DNA of 64,000 nucleotides. Source: an uncultured Actinomycetes bacterium. GTDB taxonomy: Bacteria > Actinomycetota > Thermoleophilia > Miltoncostaeales > Miltoncostaeaceae. This document shows, piece after piece, positions 10,770 through 19,311 of the stretch. The stretch lies in the NCBI GenBank assembly GCA_903896045.1, contig CAITWD010000001.1:1-64000 (forward strand), read 5' to 3'. The first letter of the stretch is position 1. Each line of letters starts with the position of its first letter. The notes under the pieces were generated by a model. The model was not told where the DNA came from and ran no database searches. It saw only the letters and a program-made list of their open reading frames with translations. Made by a program: the position numbers and the translations under genes.

Positions 10770-11097
10770 GCGACGCAAGCCCCGGCCAACAGGCCCCCCG
10801 CCCGCAAAGAGCCCCAAGGCGACGCGTGCTGACACACCCGATACGCGTGCCAAGGCGGCGCGGAAATCCGGCGAGCCACTCGCTCCATCGCTGCGGTCAG
10901 TCGTCAAGCGGGCCGGATTTATCGTCGGCGCATACGTATTAGTGCTGGTGTTTTTGTTGCATGTCACCCCATTGCTCGCCATTTCCATGGGTGTCCTTGG
11001 CCTTGCCATCATGATCCCAATGGGCCTGTTGTTGGATCGGTGGAGGTATCGCTCGGCGATGCGCAAGTGGACCGAGGGGCGGGCTGGCGCACGGTGA
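10762..11097 (+). CDS. Small basic protein with two membrane helices; possible ATC start
   Basis: The product is about 111 residues. It has a lysine/proline-rich cytoplasmic tail beginning IAKRRKPRP, then helices GFIVGAYVLVLVFLLHV and AISMGVLGLAIMIPMGLLLD and a basic C-terminus. No ATG, GTG or TTG lies near the start. AAGGAG at 10750-10755 sits 6 bases before an ATC codon at 10762, which overlaps the end of ftcD. The only other in-frame start (ATG 10648) would overlap ftcD by 120 bases. An ATC start, rare but known in bacteria, is therefore the best fit. The stop forms a GTGA overlap with hisS. The function is unknown. Confidence 0.6.
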   Translation: MAKRRKPRPTGPPPAKSPKATRADTPDTRAKAARKSGEPLAPSLRSVVKRAGFIVGAYVLVLVFLLHVTPLLAISMGVLGLAIMIPMGLLLDRWRYRSAMRKWTEGRAGAR

Positions 11098-12347
11098 GCG
11101 AGGGTCGTATCGATGCCCCGCGCGGTACTCGCGATGTCTTGCCCGATGAACACCGGGTACGTCGCCATATCCTGAACGTGGCCGCTGGGCTATTCGACGC
11201 GTATGGTTTTGGGCAGATCAGCACGCCGACCTTTGAGCACACCGAGGTCTTTTCGCGAGGCGTCGGCGCGAGTACCGACATCGTGCGTAAAGAGATGTAC
11301 ACCTTCGAGGATCGCGGCCACCGGTCGATCACATTGCGTCCCGAAGGGACTGCGGGGGTCGTGCGCGCCTTTGTCGAGCACGGGATGCACAAACTGCCCC
11401 TGCCCGTAAAGCTCTGGTACACGGGCCCGATGTTTCGCTACGAGGCCCCCCAATCCGGCCGCTTTCGCGAGCACACACAAATTGGCGCCGAGGCAATCGG
11501 CACCAATGATCCGCTGCTTGATGCCGAAGTGATCGCGCTCGCCTCCTCCTTGTATTCGGCGCTCGGTGTCCCGTCGGTCCGGCTGCGTGTGGGGAGTCTC
11601 GGTGACGACGCAACGCGCCGTCCGTATCGTGAGGCGCTCGTGGACTATCTCTCACCGCATCGCAGTGATCTTCCCGAGGATGCGCGTGATCGCATGGTGG
11701 ACAATCCCATGCGACTCTTTGACTCCAAAGATCCACGGGTGATTGCCGTGATGCACGAGGCGCCCCGGCTCATTGATCATCTCTCGGATGCCGCAGCAGA
11801 ACATTTTGCAACCGTCTGCGCCGCGCTTGATGCCATCGGGATTGCCTATGAGCGCGATCCAGATCTTGTGCGCGGTCTCGATTACTACACCCATACGGTG
11901 TTCGAATTCACCTGCGATCGCCTTGGTGCCCAAAGCGGTATCGGTGGGGGCGGGCGCTATGACGGCCTCGTCGCCCAGCTCGGTGGTCCTGAATTGTCCG
12001 GTATTGGTTTTGGGTCCGGCATCGAGCGGATTGTGCTTGCGCTGGCATCGGGAGATGCGGCGCTGCCTGAGCAATCAATTGACATTTATTTTGCGGCAGT
12101 CGATGAGCAGTCGCGCAACGAAGTGTTTGCGATCATGACGCGCCTGCGCGCCAAAGGGGTCTCATGCGAGACCGATCGTGCGGGACGGAGCCTGAAAGGC
12201 ATGATGCGCCAAGCGGCAACGCTCGGTGCGCGCCGGACCGTGATCCTTGGACCGCGTGAACGCGAGCAAGGGATTGCAATCATCAGAAGTATGCTCACGG
12301 GCGACCAAATTGAGGTCGGTCTATCCGATTTGGAGGGGTCGTTGTGA
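11094..12347 (+). CDS. hisS: Histidyl-tRNA synthetase
   Basis: This is a class II aminoacyl-tRNA synthetase of 417 residues that charges tRNA-His. It begins VSEGRIDAPRGTRDVLPDE, the usual N-terminus. Motif 2 is FRYEAPQSGRFREHTQ, the histidine-binding segment is LVRGLDYYTHTVFEF, and motif 3 is GIGFGSGIERIVLAL. A C-terminal anticodon-binding domain follows, with SLKGMMRQAATLGARRTVILG. The GTG start forms a GTGA overlap with the gene before it and the stop forms another GTGA with aspS, so the three are coupled. The longer frame from 11040 was discarded because the conserved N-terminus starts at the GTG. Confidence 0.96.
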   Translation: MSEGRIDAPRGTRDVLPDEHRVRRHILNVAAGLFDAYGFGQISTPTFEHTEVFSRGVGASTDIVRKEMYTFEDRGHRSITLRPEGTAGVVRAFVEHGMHKLPLPVKLWYTGPMFRYEAPQSGRFREHTQIGAEAIGTNDPLLDAEVIALASSLYSALGVPSVRLRVGSLGDDATRRPYREALVDYLSPHRSDLPEDARDRMVDNPMRLFDSKDPRVIAVMHEAPRLIDHLSDAAAEHFATVCAALDAIGIAYERDPDLVRGLDYYTHTVFEFTCDRLGAQSGIGGGGRYDGLVAQLGGPELSGIGFGSGIERIVLALASGDAALPEQSIDIYFAAVDEQSRNEVFAIMTRLRAKGVSCETDRAGRSLKGMMRQAATLGARRTVILGPREREQGIAIIRSMLTGDQIEVGLSDLEGSL

Positions 12348-14134
12348 TTGGTGCACAGCAATATCGAACCCACAGTTGTGTGGGTGCGGCCGAGGCCGTG
12401 GGGCAGACCGTCCGGATTGCCGGTTGGGTCCATCGTCGCCGCGATCATGGTGGCGTCCTGTTTATTGACGTGCGTGATCGCAGTGGGGTGTTGCAGCTAG
12501 TCATTCACCCAGAATCGGCAGCGTTGCTCGCGGATGCACAACGCCTTTCTCCTGAGGATGTCATTACCGCTGAGGGCACATTGGTGCCGCGTGATCCTGC
12601 GACCGTGAATGAACGAATCCCCACCGGTGCGGTGGAGTTGCGGGTCGCCGAATTGACGGTCCTTGCCGAAGCAGCGCCGTTGCCGTTCTCTGTGGAGGAT
12701 GAGCACACCCAAGCCGGGGAAGAGTTGCGCCTGACCTATCGGTACCTCGATATTCGTCGTACCACACGACTGCGCGCACTCGAGTTGCGCGGCAGAGTCG
12801 TCAAGGCGATCCGTGGAATCCTCGAAGCAGAAGATTTTCTCGAGGTGGAAACCCCGATGCTCACGCGATCAACCCCAGAGGGTGCGCGTGACTTTCTGGT
12901 GCCGTCGCGTCTGCAGCAGGGGGCCTTCTACGCCCTTCCCCAAAGCCCGCAATTGTTTAAGCAACTGTTGATGGTGGGTGGCATCGAGCGCTACTACCAA
13001 GTCGTTCGCTGTTTCCGCGATGAGGATCTTCGCGCAGACCGCCAACCCGAATTCACCCAAGTCGATATTGAAGCCTCGTTTGTCACCCCTGAAGACATTC
13101 AGCAACTGATCGAGGACATCCTTGTGGCCGCATGGGCACAGGCCGATATCGCCTTGCCGACTCCGTTCCCGCGGATGACCTATGCCGAGGCAATGCGTCG
13201 GTACGGCAGCGACCGACCCGATGTGCGCTTTGACTGCGAGATCGTCGATTGGAGCGACGCGGCCGCTGCCTCCGGTCTTGGGGTCTTCGGCAACGTTGTT
13301 GCTGCCGGCGGCGTCGTGCGCGCCGTGGTGTTCCCGGGAGCTGGCGCAGCGCTGTCGCGCAAGGACCTCGATGGTTTGGTGCAGGAGGCCCAGGAGCTTG
13401 GTGCCAAAGGGTTGGTCTGGGCGGTTCCCGGATCAGACGATGCGCTGCGCGCCTCGGTGAAGTCTGAGTTTTTGGGCGGCCTCGTCGATCACCTTGGCGC
13501 CAATGAGGGTGATCTCATTGCCCTTGTCGCGGATACCGAGCACGCGACCCAACGTGTCCTTGGTGCGGTGCGTACGCGCTGGGCAGAGCGTTTTGGCCTG
13601 ATTCCGGAAGGGACCTGGGCGCCCTTGTGGGTCGTCGATTTCCCACTCGTCGAATTCAATGAGAATGAGAATCGCTGGGATGCGCTCCATCATCCGTTTA
13701 CTGCACCTCGACCCGAGGATCTCGGGATTCTCGACAGCGATCCCGGCGCGGTGATTGCCCAAGCCTATGACGTTGTAATGAATGGTCTTGAGTTGGGTGG
13801 GGGCAGCATCCGTATTCACCGGATGGATATTCAAAAGCGGGTTTTCGGGATCATCGGGCTCGACGCGGAGCAAGCACAGGAGCGGTTCGGGTTTCTGCTG
13901 CGCGCGCTGGAGCTGGGAGCACCGCCTCATGGCGGGGTCGCGCTCGGCTTAGATCGCCTCGTGATGCAACTGGCCGGAGAGCGGTCGATTCGCGATGTGA
14001 TCGCTTTTCCAAAAACCGCGACGGGAAGTGATCCGTTGACCGGAGCACCTGCCGCGGTCGATGCCCCACAGCTCGCCGAGCTCGGCATTCGTTCCCTCGT
14101 GCCAGCTTCAGATGCCGCTCGCGACGGGAACTAA
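12344..14134 (+). CDS. aspS: Aspartyl-tRNA synthetase (bacterial type, probably non-discriminating)
   Basis: The 596-residue product has an N-terminal OB-fold anticodon domain (GWVHRRRDHGGVLFIDVRDRSG), a class II core with FRDEDLRADRQPEFTQ (motif 2), the bacterial GAD insertion domain (about 290-415) and a motif 3 region GGVALGLDRLVMQLAG. The OB loop reads RRRDHGGV, with His where strict AspRS such as E. coli has Leu. In Pseudomonas that His goes with a relaxed enzyme that also makes Asp-tRNA-Asn for GatCAB. The second reported determinant region reads RDPATVN, which is not decisive. It is coupled to hisS by GTGA. Confidence 0.95.
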   Translation: MIGAQQYRTHSCVGAAEAVGQTVRIAGWVHRRRDHGGVLFIDVRDRSGVLQLVIHPESAALLADAQRLSPEDVITAEGTLVPRDPATVNERIPTGAVELRVAELTVLAEAAPLPFSVEDEHTQAGEELRLTYRYLDIRRTTRLRALELRGRVVKAIRGILEAEDFLEVETPMLTRSTPEGARDFLVPSRLQQGAFYALPQSPQLFKQLLMVGGIERYYQVVRCFRDEDLRADRQPEFTQVDIEASFVTPEDIQQLIEDILVAAWAQADIALPTPFPRMTYAEAMRRYGSDRPDVRFDCEIVDWSDAAAASGLGVFGNVVAAGGVVRAVVFPGAGAALSRKDLDGLVQEAQELGAKGLVWAVPGSDDALRASVKSEFLGGLVDHLGANEGDLIALVADTEHATQRVLGAVRTRWAERFGLIPEGTWAPLWVVDFPLVEFNENENRWDALHHPFTAPRPEDLGILDSDPGAVIAQAYDVVMNGLELGGGSIRIHRMDIQKRVFGIIGLDAEQAQERFGFLLRALELGAPPHGGVALGLDRLVMQLAGERSIRDVIAFPKTATGSDPLTGAPAAVDAPQLAELGIRSLVPASDAARDGN

Positions 14135-14471
14135 ACGATTGACAACCGCGCGCAGCCAGCAGGCCCTGTCGAGTGCGCGCGGTGCGATTTGTTCCTCGGA
14201 GAGAAAGTCACTACTCTCGGTATGCCCGACCGTGTACGCCACTGGCGCGAGGCCTGAGCCAACACGTATACAACGGGATGTGATGTCAGGTTGCCGCACT
14301 GTGTGCCGTAGCCGCACGCGTCCCACCTGCTTCGGCAGGTTCAGCACTCGTTCCGGAACGGCACGGTGGGGCACCTTTTTGATCCCGCGTGGGGTACAGC
14401 ACGAATTCGTGGAATGCGGGGCTCGAAGGGTGCCTTCGGGAACCGTCCCCCTGACCGGCTAACCTTTCGGC
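14135..14471. other. 337-base intergenic region with several hairpins, before mnmA
   Basis: No convincing protein frame crosses this stretch. It holds several self-complementary elements on the plus strand: GAGAG with CTCTC near 14199-14219, a perfect ACCTGC-TTCG-GCAGGT hairpin near 14329-14344, a palindrome CGTTCCGGAACG near 14351-14362, and CACGAATTCGTG near 14400-14411. It could carry a small structured RNA or the end of the hisS-aspS transcript. I compared it by eye with T-box, SRP, tmRNA and RNase P signatures and saw no match. Confidence 0.35.
14460..14471 (+). promoter_or_regulatory. Putative -10 box for a leaderless mnmA transcript
   Basis: TAACCT at 14460-14465 lies 6 bases before the GTG at 14472. 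No Shine-Dalgarno precedes the GTG. The spacing would place the transcript start at the start codon, as seen at several other genes here. No good -35 box is seen. Confidence 0.4.
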
Positions 14472-15956
14472 GTGAGCGCGTATACCGAAAACGTCATCCG
14501 CCATATGGCTGCACCCGTTGGGGCGGGCCCTCTTGAGGGCGCAAATGCCGTCGGGGAGTCTGGCGCTGTGGGGTGTGGGGATGTCGTGCGTATGCAAATG
14601 CGCATCGACGATGATCGGATCTGCGCGATCCGCTTTCTGGCGTACGGGTGTCCCGCCGCGCTTGCCGCAGCGAGTGCGGTCTGTGAACTGCTTGAGGGCG
14701 CGAGCCTTGCCGATGCAATGCGCCTGTCGATTGGCGATGTTGATGCAGCACTCGGCGGCGTCGGTGATGACCGGATTCATGGCCCCGAGATTGTGGTGGA
14801 CGCACTCGCTCGGGGGCTTGAGCAGTGGTGCACCGCGCAACTCGGGAATCCTGGGCCGGGGCGACAGCACAGACGTGTTGCCGTCGCCATGAGCGGTGGA
14901 GTGGACTCTGCCGTTGCCGCGATGATGTTGGTCCAAGAGGGCTGGGATGTTGTCGGGGTGACCATGCGCTTGTGGCACGACCCTGGCGCGGTGGCCGCAG
15001 AACGCTCATGTTGTTCACCCGAAACGGTGCGGCTCGCGCGCGCGAGTGCCCATGTGCTCGGCATACCCCACATCACCATTGATGCATCAGATCCCTTTCG
15101 CAATGGCGTGGTCGAGGAATTCATGGCGGGCTACAAGGCCGGACTCACCCCGAATCCCTGCGTGGTCTGTAACGGCAGCGTGCGCTTTCGCCTGTTGGCG
15201 GATGCGGCGGAGCTCCTTGGCGCCCAATGGCTAGCGACGGGCCACTATGCGCGTGTGGTGTCTGGCGCTGAGGGTCAACCAGTGTTGGCCGCCGCCGCCG
15301 ATACATCAAAGGATCAGAGCTACATGCTCAGCATGTTGCGCCGGGATATGCTTGACCGTTTGATTTTCCCCCTTGGAGAACTTGAGAAGTCCGAGGTGCG
15401 CACCCGTGCGCACACCGCCGAATTGCCGGCGGCAGACGCAATTGAGAGCCAGGAGATTTGTTTCGTTGGCGCCGATGGCTACGGACCGTTTCTTGAGCGT
15501 AATGCAGGGCTTTCTCCAACGGCAGGTCCGATCATGGATGTTGATGGGAACACTGTCGGTGAGCATTCGGGGTATTGGCGATTTACTGTCGGACAGCGCA
15601 AGGGTATTGGCGTCTCTGCAGCAGAGGCGCTGTATGTGATTGGCACAGATGCCCAGACAAATGCGGTCACTGTGGGGCCAAAAGATGCGCTCGCCGCATG
15701 GGGCTTGGAGTTGCGCCCGGCGGTCGCCCATGATGCGATTGATCTGACCGTTCCGTTTGAGGTACGAGTGCGATACCGGGGGACGCCACTCGCCGGACGC
15801 GCCGTGGTTCCGATCGATGACACCGGCGTGATTATCGACCTTGCGGAGCCTGCGATGGGGGTGGCCGCAGGGCAGACCGCGACCGTCTACCAGCAGGGAC
15901 GTCTGATCCTAGCCGGTACGATCGTCTCGTCACGTTCGTCAAGCCGGAGCGACTAG
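14472..15956 (+). CDS. mnmA: Fusion of an IscU/NifU-like scaffold domain with tRNA 2-thiouridylase MnmA
   Basis: Residues 1-125 match the IscU fold: CGD with Cys35 and Asp37, YGC with Cys60, and DRIHGPEIVVDALARGL, where IscU has the third ligand in an HCS motif. Here that position is Gly104, so one of the three cluster cysteines is missing. Residues 134-494 are MnmA, which makes 2-thiouridine at U34 of Lys, Glu and Gln tRNAs. It has PP-loop SGGVDS (141-146), TPNPCVVCN with Cys230 and Cys233, GHYAR, and the persulfide cysteine 330 in SQEICFV. The CxxC in place of E. coli DxxC fits an iron-sulfur-dependent enzyme. The fusion suggests that cluster or sulfur delivery happens in cis. No cysteine desulfurase lies nearby. 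Confidence 0.88.
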   Translation: MSAYTENVIRHMAAPVGAGPLEGANAVGESGAVGCGDVVRMQMRIDDDRICAIRFLAYGCPAALAAASAVCELLEGASLADAMRLSIGDVDAALGGVGDDRIHGPEIVVDALARGLEQWCTAQLGNPGPGRQHRRVAVAMSGGVDSAVAAMMLVQEGWDVVGVTMRLWHDPGAVAAERSCCSPETVRLARASAHVLGIPHITIDASDPFRNGVVEEFMAGYKAGLTPNPCVVCNGSVRFRLLADAAELLGAQWLATGHYARVVSGAEGQPVLAAAADTSKDQSYMLSMLRRDMLDRLIFPLGELEKSEVRTRAHTAELPAADAIESQEICFVGADGYGPFLERNAGLSPTAGPIMDVDGNTVGEHSGYWRFTVGQRKGIGVSAAEALYVIGTDAQTNAVTVGPKDALAAWGLELRPAVAHDAIDLTVPFEVRVRYRGTPLAGRAVVPIDDTGVIIDLAEPAMGVAAGQTATVYQQGRLILAGTIVSSRSSSRSD

Positions 15957-15959
15957 ACG

Positions 15960-16463
15960 GTGTTGTTCTCCCACATGCATTGGTCAGACGTCCTCAAAGC
16001 GGCGTTGTCATTGTTTTTGATCCTGACCGGATTTGGTTTGGCCTACCTGTTTTTGCGCATGGCGGGCGTTTTTACACGACTCGGGAGTTCAGTCACCCGC
16101 GTGACCGATGAAATTGTCCCGATTCTCACACGGGCGCAGACGACGATGGACGGCGTGAACCGAGAAATTGACCGGGTCGACGAGATCATGGTCACTGCGG
16201 TGAATGGCGCCAAGGGTGCTGAGCGCGCATTGCAGACGGTCTCGAGTGCGGCGACGGCGCCCGTGCGGATCCTGTCTGGGGTGGCCGCTGGTGTGAAAGA
16301 GGGCTTTGCGACATTTGTCGCCCGCCGTTCCGCAGAGGCCAAAAATGGTCCGGCCAGTGGTGGCAGCGGTTCCGACGAGGCCAAAAAGGCCGCAAATGAG
16401 GCTGCGGCAACCACAACCGAATCGGCGACACAAAGCAGCGCATCCACGGAGACTGCCTCGTGA
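15960..16463 (+). CDS. DUF948-like membrane protein with coiled coil
   Basis: The 167-residue product starts at GTG 15960, with GGAG 10 bases upstream; ATG 15975 is an alternative. One N-terminal membrane helix (about 11-35) is followed by a helical segment with heptad-like spacing (VTRVTDEIVPILTRAQTTMDGVNREIDRVDEI) and a low-complexity Ala/Ser/Thr/Glu tail. This is the pattern of DUF948 proteins, which sit just upstream of alaS in many actinobacteria. Their function is not established; a link with envelope or cell-shape functions has been suggested from context only. Confidence 0.75.
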   Translation: MLFSHMHWSDVLKAALSLFLILTGFGLAYLFLRMAGVFTRLGSSVTRVTDEIVPILTRAQTTMDGVNREIDRVDEIMVTAVNGAKGAERALQTVSSAATAPVRILSGVAAGVKEGFATFVARRSAEAKNGPASGGSGSDEAKKAANEAAATTTESATQSSASTETAS

Positions 16464-16687
16464 AGATGCGCACGCTTGCGCTTCTGGGCGGGCTTGGCTG
16501 GGCATATTCCAAGGGACCGCGTGATCCTCAGGAGTGGCCCGGTTTCCTTGCCGAGCAATATGCGGTCGTACGTGGTCAGATCGATGAATCAATTGCCGCC
16601 GGCAAGCGCGCGAGTGTGCGACGTGGGCACCAAATTGACCGGGAGATCGGCGAGGTCTTATCGCGGACAGTCAATCGCCAGCAGTGA
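16460..16687 (+). CDS. Conserved small protein between the DUF948-like gene and alaS
   Basis: The 75-residue product begins with a short hydrophobic stretch (TLALLGGLGWAYSKG) and then a charged helical region. Its GTG overlaps the stop of the DUF948-like gene as GTGA, so the two are made together. Actinobacterial genomes often carry a second small gene at this place, upstream of alaS. I do not recognise a domain with confidence. The hydrophobic part is too short for a firm membrane-helix call, and the protein may be a peripheral partner of its neighbour. Confidence 0.6.
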   Translation: MKMRTLALLGGLGWAYSKGPRDPQEWPGFLAEQYAVVRGQIDESIAAGKRASVRRGHQIDREIGEVLSRTVNRQQ

Positions 16688-16752
16688 GACCGCTGCGGTC
16701 GGCCCGCGGCGACGACGGAAGAGGTATCCGTGCTGGTACGATCGGCGGTCGT

Positions 16753-19311
16753 ATGACTACCCATGAGATCCGTCGCGCATTCCGCGAATACTTTGAACGC
16801 CAGGGCCACCTCGCGCTGCCCTCCGCGCCACTGGTCCCGTACGACGACGATCCGTCGGTCCTGCTGACAATTGCAGGAATGCAGCCGCTCAAAGCGTTTT
16901 TCATGGGAACCGAGACTCCGCCATCGCAGCGGTTGACGAGTTGTCAAAAGTGCTTTCGTACGGTTGACATCGACCAAATCGGCCATACCGCGCGCCACCT
17001 GACCTTCTTTGAAATGCTCGGCAATTTCTCGATTGGCGACTACTTCAAGGATGATGCGATCCGCTTCGGATTTGAGGTCTCGACCGAGGTACTTGGACTC
17101 GATCTCGATCGCATTTGGATCACCGTGTTCGAGGGCAACGACGCAGTTCCCGGTGATGACGAAGCCCGGCAGCGATGGATTGATCTGGGTGTGCCCGCGG
17201 AACGGATTCAGGCACTCGGCGAAGCAGACAATTTTTGGAAGGCGGGCCCCACCGGACCGTGTGGGCCAAATACCGAATTGTATTTCGACCGCGGCCCATC
17301 ATTTGGTCCCGACGGAGGCCCGAGAGTCGGTGGCGATCGCTATCTCGAATACTGGAACCTCGTGTTCATGCAATACGAGCGGGCCGTCGATGGGACGCTC
17401 AGTCCGCTGCCAGCCAAAAACATCGATACCGGCGCGGGTCTTGAGCGCATTGCAGCGCTGCTGCAAGACGCACCATCGGTTTTTGAAACCGATGCGTTTT
17501 GGCCGCTCATTGAATGGGCGCAAACGGCGACTCGGGTGAAGTATGGGGCCGACCTCCGTTCCGATCGCTCGCTGCGTGTGCTGGCCGATCACGGTCGCGC
17601 AATGACCTTTTTGGCGGCCGATGGCGTGCGCCCATCAAATGAGGGTCGCGGGTATGTCTTGCGCCGCATTGTGCGCCGTGCCGTAGCTGAGGGTACGCAA
17701 CTCGGGTTGCCATATGACGCTGTCGTGGCGCTTGCCTCCGAGGTCGCGGATGGTTGGGGTGACTCCTATCCGGAACTCATCGCTGAACGCGGCGCTGTGG
17801 CAGACACACTCGGTGCAGAAGCCGAACAATTTGCACGGACATTGCAGCAGGGAAGAAAGCTGCTGTCGGAAGTCATTGCGCGCGCAAGCGACGGCGGTAC
17901 GGTGTCGGGTGACGACGCATTCCGCTTGCATGACACCTACGGGTTCCCGCTCGATCTCACCGCTGAGGCGGCACATGATGCCGGACTTGTCGTCGATACC
18001 GATGCGTTCGAGACATTGATGACCGATCAGCGAGAGCGCTCACGTGCGGGTGGTACCGCAGCAACCGAGAGCGAGCGAGCGACTCGAGCGAGTGAACTTG
18101 TCGCACGAAGCCCACGGACCGAGTTTGTGGGCTACGACCAGCTGTCGGTCGCAACGACGGTGACCGGCGTCGAGGAGCTTGGGGATGGCCAGTCCCTCGT
18201 GACGCTCGCGCAGTCTCCGTTTTATGCCCAAGGTGGGGGCCAGATCTCCGATCGCGGGTGGGTTGTCGGAGCAGATCGCCGCTGGGATGTGGTTGAGGTG
18301 CTCCGGATAGGCAACAGCCAGGCGATCGTCGTAGCTGGGGAGGGGATTGTCCAGGGAGCAACGGTCGACGCCAATGTGGACGTGCCAAACCGACGCGCCA
18401 TACAGGCAAACCACACCGGCACGCATGTCCTGAACTGGGCGCTGCGTGAGCGTTTGGGTCCCGATGTCAAGCAGGCCGGATCCTACGTCGGCCCTGACAA
18501 ATTGCGCTTTGACTTCACGCATCGAGGGCGCATTCCGCGCGAAGAGCTTGATCAGATCGAGGGTCTCGTCAACGCGAAGGTGGCCGCCGACGGACCGGTC
18601 ACGTGGATCGAGATGCCCAAAGCGGACGCAGATGGGCTTGGTGCAATTGGGTTGTTCGGCGAGAAATACGGTGATGTCGTCCGGGTCGTCTCCGCCGGAG
18701 ACTTTTCGATGGAATTGTGCGGCGGTACGCATGTGTCGCGTATGAGTGAGATCGGACCCTTCAAGATTGTGACCGAAACCAGTGTGGGTTCCGGGGCGCG
18801 TCGTATTGAGGCAATCACTGGAGCCGAACTCGGACGATGGTATGCCCGTCGCGCCGAGGAGCTCGCACATGAACTCGAACAACGGGATGCGCGCATTGCG
18901 GAGCTCGAGCGTGATCTGAAACGCGCCAAACAGGGCCGCATCGACCCGAACGCGATTGCCAAGGACGCAGTTGACGTCGGACAAGCGCGGGTGCTGATCG
19001 CCCAAGTTGAGACCGATGATGGTGATGAGTTGTTGGCCATCTCCGATCAGATCAAGAAGACGCTCGGAGAATCTGCAGTCGTTGTTCTTGCCGCAGGCGT
19101 CGAAGATCGCGTGATGTTGGTTGCCAATTTGGGCACCGCTGCAGTCGAGGCGGGCTTCAGCGCTGCGAATCTGTTGCGCGAGATCGCCCCGATTGTCGGC
19201 GGCGGCGGCGGCGGTCGCGATGCAATGGCGCGCGCGGGCGGCAAAGACCCCGCGCGGATTCCCGACGCACTTGCCCGTGCCCGCGACATCCTGGTGGGTT
19301 CCACCGAGTGA
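16753..19311 (+). CDS. alaS: Alanyl-tRNA synthetase
   Basis: The enzyme is 852 residues, close to the usual length. The class II catalytic core begins MTTHEIRRAFREYF and contains FFEMLGNFSIGDYFK and the GAGLERI segment. The editing domain has HTGTHVLNWAL and the zinc-site motif CGGTHVSRMSEIG, which clear mischarged Ser and Gly. A coiled coil and the C-terminal DHHA1 domain with the glycine-rich GGGGGGRDAMARAGG end the protein. The ATG at 16753 was preferred over the in-frame start at 16684 because the conserved N-terminus begins there. TACGAT lies 10 bases upstream and may be its -10 box. Confidence 0.96.
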   Translation: MTTHEIRRAFREYFERQGHLALPSAPLVPYDDDPSVLLTIAGMQPLKAFFMGTETPPSQRLTSCQKCFRTVDIDQIGHTARHLTFFEMLGNFSIGDYFKDDAIRFGFEVSTEVLGLDLDRIWITVFEGNDAVPGDDEARQRWIDLGVPAERIQALGEADNFWKAGPTGPCGPNTELYFDRGPSFGPDGGPRVGGDRYLEYWNLVFMQYERAVDGTLSPLPAKNIDTGAGLERIAALLQDAPSVFETDAFWPLIEWAQTATRVKYGADLRSDRSLRVLADHGRAMTFLAADGVRPSNEGRGYVLRRIVRRAVAEGTQLGLPYDAVVALASEVADGWGDSYPELIAERGAVADTLGAEAEQFARTLQQGRKLLSEVIARASDGGTVSGDDAFRLHDTYGFPLDLTAEAAHDAGLVVDTDAFETLMTDQRERSRAGGTAATESERATRASELVARSPRTEFVGYDQLSVATTVTGVEELGDGQSLVTLAQSPFYAQGGGQISDRGWVVGADRRWDVVEVLRIGNSQAIVVAGEGIVQGATVDANVDVPNRRAIQANHTGTHVLNWALRERLGPDVKQAGSYVGPDKLRFDFTHRGRIPREELDQIEGLVNAKVAADGPVTWIEMPKADADGLGAIGLFGEKYGDVVRVVSAGDFSMELCGGTHVSRMSEIGPFKIVTETSVGSGARRIEAITGAELGRWYARRAEELAHELEQRDARIAELERDLKRAKQGRIDPNAIAKDAVDVGQARVLIAQVETDDGDELLAISDQIKKTLGESAVVVLAAGVEDRVMLVANLGTAAVEAGFSAANLLREIAPIVGGGGGGRDAMARAGGKDPARIPDALARARDILVGSTE

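Follow-up and report, generated by a model that had tools for sequence, protein, structure and literature searches.

Gene Structure and Domains

The window, by which we mean the whole 64,000-nucleotide stretch of DNA that was analyzed, belongs to a genome of 1.67 Mb that is 99.85% complete. The window features for which individual coordinates are given lie on its forward strand. A gene with a GTG start (14472..15956) encodes, in a single open reading frame with zero internal stops, a 494-amino-acid protein in which an IscU-like domain is fused to the tRNA thiolase MnmA. Residues 3–119 (14478..14828) match the IscU/NifU N-terminal family (Pfam PF01592; E 2.4e-24, 86.3 bits against a cut-off of 22), and residues 135–484 (14874..15923), comprising the HUP/PP-loop, central, and C-terminal barrel domains, match the three tRNA_Me_trans domains of MnmA in Pfam. 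The short linker, residues 120–134 (14829..14873), is the gap between the Pfam domains, into which a helix (residues 103–123) of the AlphaFold model extends. This model, for which the alignment input was 68 homologues, is confident in both domains (pLDDT 95.8, pTM 0.93). Foldseek searches with it returned MnmA structures (2hma, 2deu) and then IscU structures, of which that of A. fulgidus is the best (4eb5_C; TM 0.81, rmsd 1.3 Å); 7c8m and 2z7e were also found. The match behind the domain assignment is well past chance level.

The MnmA equivalog models of NCBIfam are passed (NF001138, 353.7 bits against a cut-off of 284; TIGR00420, 306.5 against 236.95), and those for IscU/NifU (TIGR01999, 53.2 against 192.4; TIGR03419, 78 against 187.9; TIGR02000, 69.2 against 273.3) and SufU (TIGR01994, 41.9 against 92.5) are missed. 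Judged by such profile scores and by its motifs, the protein is a member of MnmA and by defining features neither IscU nor SufU.

The cysteines and other residues that the preliminary description had placed in the two halves are all where it put them. The IscU-like domain holds Cys35-Gly36-Asp37 (CGD; 14574..14582), which supplies the first two putative metal ligands; Cys60 of a YGC motif (14649..14651), the third; and His103 (14778..14783, with Gly104), the fourth. Gly104 stands in place of the canonical cysteine of HCS, so that the third cluster cysteine is indeed gone. The domain thus shares with the IscU/NifU N-terminal scaffold its fold, CGD, YGC, and the His of HCS, but differs in Gly104, in its sub-cut-off scores, in its fusion to a possible client enzyme, and in the absence of the LPPxK motif that precedes HCS (the window has GVGDDRIHG, whereas P98 and K101 are found in 22/22 unfused proteins).

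In the MnmA part, the PP-loop motif SGGVDS (residues 141–146; 14892..14909) is invariant in the 68-sequence alignment. The CxxC pair Cys230 and Cys233 (15159..15170) and Cys330 (15459..15461), the equivalent of the catalytic Cys199 of E. coli, had been taken as signs of an iron-sulfur-dependent enzyme, and Cys180-Cys181 (15009..15014) completes the CC-CxxC-C motif of the C-type, or Fe-S class; all five cysteines are invariant in 98/98 fused proteins. The whole C-terminal part is alike in this respect to C-type MnmA such as that of Thermus thermophilus, and Thermus MnmA has been reported to carry a [4Fe-4S] cluster (PMC8584467, PMC11784392).

The fusion is flanked by aspS (12344..14134) upstream and alaS (16753..19311; likely start at MTTHEIRR) downstream, both conserved neighbors. 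Between the fusion and alaS lies a gene for a DUF948-like membrane protein (15960..16463; E 2.2e-4, below the cut-off), which by synteny is a frequent downstream neighbor. The order aspS-fusion-alaS, often with the DUF948-like gene, recurs in many relatives, and the longer order hisS-aspS-fusion-DUF948-alaS (window 11040–19311) is conserved across much of the class.

Distribution and Origin of the Fusion

Our sample of fused genes comprises 98 loci from the Thermoleophilia and from f23, another family of Actinobacteria, in all of which the fusion is open. The fusion is therefore genuine, as the single reading frame, the Pfam domains, and the model with its Foldseek matches also indicate; that two genes had been joined by a sequencing error or frameshift is rejected by the 98 loci, which include single-contig genomes. 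Among named relatives with the fusion, a Miltoncostaeaceae metagenome-assembled genome is one of the nearest, and more distant ones belong to Patulibacter, Thermoleophilaceae, and Solirubrobacterales. A class-wide search found the fusion at full length in most Thermoleophilia families, and these matches, together with f23, reject its confinement to the window's genome or family. In full-text searches of open-access papers, no description of an IscU-MnmA fusion came up.

In f23, which is perhaps Rubrobacter, the gene order is iscS, the IscU::MnmA fusion, the DUF948-like gene, and alaS. Separate, adjoining iscU and mnmA genes occur in Clostridia, Deltaproteobacteria, Acidobacteria, and others, and one Thermoleophilia family (f2) has an unfused iscS-iscU-mnmA operon with a canonical IscU. 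These unfused neighbors and the f23 order make such an operon the likely source of the fusion. In a first quick tree the unfused f2 clade was nested inside the fused rows. A tree that placed all actinobacterial fused rows, together with the domain losses of f4 described below, in one clade outscored the free tree (p-AU 0.567); many independent actinobacterial fusions are thus not required, as the AU test leaves a single origin unrejected. One further fusion (L141, family f73) branches apart from the actinobacterial ones and has Asp in place of the first Cys; it is apparently a separate, independent IscU-MnmA fusion.

One of His103 and Cys104 Is Kept in Site-Intact Fused Domains

Positions 35, 37, 60, 103, and 104 were tabulated across fused and unfused domains. 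C-D-C is intact in 82 of the 95 distinct ungapped fused domains. Every distinct unfused IscU with CxD..C intact keeps both His103 and Cys104 (22/22), whereas every distinct fused domain with CxD..C intact keeps exactly one of them (82/82; both 0, neither 0). His alone is kept in 69 of these 82 (families f1, which is the window's, f5, f7, f9, f10, and f23) and Cys alone in 13 (families f4, f8, and f11), so that the ligand set is C-D-C-H in the window and C-D-C-C in f8, f11, and part of f4. Fisher's exact test on the His/Cys pair, fused versus unfused, gives p 5e-23, but as the sequences are related by descent it is more cautious to say that several separate lineages each cut the pair to one.

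On this tabulation the loss of the third cysteine is not peculiar to the window's protein: each fused domain with CxD..C intact has dropped either the His or the Cys, a rule and not an oddity of one genome. Fused homologues that retain the third cysteine, which the preliminary description had named as a case against its proposal, do exist in f4, f8, and f11, but there the adjoining His has been lost instead.

In families f1, f5, f7, f9, f10, and f23 taken whole, together with seven complete named loci, the four ligand residues are present throughout, and all other columns of the domain show some variation (mean identity ~43%); the four-residue site therefore appears to be under selection in whole His-type families. 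The claim is drawn from whole families because the "H-type" set was chosen by its ligand residues, which makes the 100% values of that set partly circular. Four f4 proteins that have lost Asp37 have also lost both His and Cys, as would be expected if all of these residues form one site.

Site Decay and Domain Loss

Not all fused domains keep the site. In f6 and f12 the domain stays, but only Cys35 is kept of the five tabulated positions. In f3, which is Gaiella-like, the domain is shortened and has zero ligands; it is nevertheless matched to the full domain by hhalign (probability 94.7%), and its model is well folded (block pLDDT 92–97). This ligand-free, truncated mini-domain precedes MnmA and is strongly conserved (GLTLLEAAAVGGETLAVDALANALG) at loci L061, L067-L071, L179, L180, L216, L239, and L241. 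In four f4 genomes the domain is absent altogether from the MnmA gene. Families f3, f6, and f12 keep a CC-CxxC-C MnmA without a usable site. From these losses of site (f6, f12, part of f4, and f3) and of domain (four f4 genomes), it follows that the domain is not essential for MnmA, and that in the site-decayed families it must have another use or be vestigial.

Sulfur Supply

A search for separate sulfur genes in the window's genome, which the preliminary description had proposed, yielded a SufS, a three-Cys SufU, and a second desulfurase (IscS) homologue. SufS has the PLP lysine motif, the nucleophilic Cys, and an HPHD segment like that of SufS enzymes that depend on SufU; it is the only desulfurase found in the genome with both PLP lysine and nucleophilic Cys, and the SufU gene adjoins it. 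Profile searches of the genome gave zero matches to the DsrC/TusE family and zero to the DsrE/TusBCD family, and the fusion is its only full MnmA match.

In the IscS homologue (G000:C15:7096-8256; locus labels L074/L083 and L257:7108-8256) the HK that holds PLP is replaced by TP and the Cys loop is kept. IscS homologues of the window's genome and 19/19 sampled relatives in f1 have likewise lost the HK motif and kept a GS[AT]C loop, and in nearly all f1 genomes sampled a TusA gene lies directly downstream. Families f5, f7, and f9 give almost exclusively SufS-like matches, and most of their genomes yielded no IscS-like gene, so SufS is the likely donor in these His-type families. Several families with fused domains, e.g., f23, retain an intact IscS, and SufS is therefore not the universal donor for fused domains.

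A Proposed Sulfur-Acceptor Module

The sulfur route to MnmA, and whether the enzyme uses a cluster or a persulfide, are disputed (reviewed in PMC11784392). In the cited literature MnmA is described without a fused IscU-like domain and receives its sulfur either through Tus proteins or straight from a desulfurase. Our preferred reading, to which we assign a probability of roughly 0.45, is that the fusion protein is a C-type MnmA U34 2-thiolase carrying an IscU-derived, SufU-like sulfur-acceptor and desulfurase-docking module that is no longer a general scaffold. Cys35, Asp37, Cys60, and His103 would coordinate a single metal tetrahedrally (probably Zn(II)); a cysteine desulfurase (SufS in the window's genome) would dock on the IscU-like domain and hand persulfide sulfur to Cys35 or Cys60; and the tether would bring this sulfur to the MnmA center at Cys230/233/330, probably a [4Fe-4S] site. 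The fused module would thereby replace the TusA-TusBCD-TusE relay.

Several lines of evidence agree with this proposal. QM/MM calculations on E. coli IscU place Zn on Cys37, Asp39, Cys63, and His105 while Cys106 points elsewhere; alternatively, Cys106 joins the Zn when His105 is protonated and displaced (PMC4243993). Since each site-intact fused domain has exactly four possible ligands, it matches one or the other of these calculated geometries, and by this analogy the His-only and Cys-only types look like the two Zn states of IscU made permanent. The intact SufS with HPHD, the lack of DsrC/TusE and DsrE/TusBCD matches, and the single full MnmA count in favor of a module that replaces the Tus proteins, and the lack of TusE and TusBCD in the window's genome fits the earlier idea of a built-in donor or acceptor. 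The retention of CC-CxxC-C in 98/98 fused MnmA halves favors an Fe-S-class MnmA fed by the module.

The missing cysteine is the equivalent of human Cys138, which takes persulfide on iron-loaded ISCU2 during cluster synthesis (PMC8617193), and Cys35 is the equivalent of E. coli IscU Cys37, the proposed first persulfide acceptor (PMC9769115). Loss of the cysteine tied to cluster assembly, together with absence of the LPPxK chaperone motif, counts for a role other than that of scaffold; from the residues kept, a cluster-scaffold role seems less likely than a SufU-like acceptor role.

By analogy, the fused domain probably works like SufU. Both have a four-ligand site in which one of the His/Cys pair is replaced, and the window's genome encodes a SufS with HPHD as partner. 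SufU, however, keeps the Cys and has Lys in place of His (PMC10216065), whereas the window's domain keeps the His, lacks the Cys, and scores under the SufU cut-off; its genome also has a true SufU besides the fusion. The Cys-only set of f4, f8, and f11 resembles that of SufU. A fused sulfur acceptor on a tRNA thiolase is also known in E. coli ThiI, but there it is a C-terminal rhodanese-like domain and not an IscU-like one (PMC8584467).

The suggestion that the MnmA half might lend a ligand is needless and was rejected, since the domain has four possible ligands of its own and all of the MnmA cysteines are parts of the standard motif. If a ligand or persulfide is supplied from elsewhere, it would more plausibly come from a partner desulfurase, either SufS or the lysine-less IscS homologue, than from the MnmA half.

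Certain observations count against the preferred reading. Bacillus subtilis MnmA takes sulfur straight from its desulfurase without an IscU-like domain. The decay of the site in f6, f12, part of f4, and f3, with the f4 domain loss, is a second point, and the intact IscS of several families weighs against SufS as a universal donor.

Alternative Readings

The decayed families suit a somewhat improbable alternative, that the domain is mainly structural, packing on MnmA or binding tRNA or the desulfurase, with the metal site a stabilizing leftover of iscU. The well-folded, ligand-free remnant in f3 and the site-less domains of f6 and f12 fit this proposal, but across divergent His-type families full conservation is confined to the four ligands, and a leftover would not be expected to follow the His-or-Cys rule.

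Still less probable, in our estimate, is that Cys35, Asp37, Cys60, and His103 hold a [2Fe-2S] cluster, and that cluster or iron is passed on to build or repair the [4Fe-4S] of MnmA. This is the donor idea of the preliminary description with no ligand lent by MnmA. This Cys, Asp, Cys, His set could also hold such a cluster, which counts against the Zn acceptor model; the IscU fold and ligand positions are retained, the MnmA half is in the [4Fe-4S] class, and a cluster on IscU may be ligated by this His (PMC10216065). Against it, the persulfide/assembly Cys is gone from all His-type domains and the His from all Cys-type domains, the window lacks the chaperone motif, and f6, f12, and f3 keep a CC-CxxC-C MnmA without a usable site.

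A very unlikely reading, for the window's family, has the missing ligand or the sulfur supplied by the IscS homologue that lacks the PLP lysine, whose Cys loop would be presented to the IscU-like domain on docking. In its favor are the loss of HK with the loop kept in the window's genome and 19/19 sampled f1 relatives, the TusA gene next to it in nearly all, and the precedent of the lysine-less A. fulgidus IscS, which lends a Cys ligand to the [2Fe-2S] on IscU (PMC7585200). Against it, the same His-type domain recurs in f5, f7, and f9, where most genomes yielded no IscS-like gene, and in f23, whose IscS is intact.

A thiolase with a possible acceptor tethered to it and natural His-only, Cys-only, and site-less variants makes the dispute over MnmA sulfur directly testable. 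Through the ligands that are kept once the domain serves one enzyme, the fusion may also tell the part of IscU in accepting sulfur from its part in assembling clusters. A bolder version, which we regard as doubtful, would make the fused domain the first of a novel kind of sulfur-transfer module, a metal site built into a tRNA thiolase that arose from IscU when one of its two alternative tetrahedral states became fixed; in the window's family a catalytically dead, TusA-linked IscS homologue would act with it as a persulfide or ligand hub and not as a desulfurase.

The conservation of a lysine-less IscS homologue beside TusA in the window's family was an unexpected finding. IscS proteins that lack the lysine also occur in A. 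fulgidus and Methanosarcina (PMC7585200); the A. fulgidus homologue likewise has a Cys loop, but its IscU is a free three-Cys scaffold, whereas the window's domain is part of an MnmA fusion and has lost the third Cys. In another actinobacterial family (f26), two IscS homologues beside an intact IscU have SDLL and SDMI in place of HK (L142 and L143), and an f4 genome (G092) has an IscS homologue that has lost the lysine (HA; L127) and a fused domain without Asp37, His, and Cys (L034).
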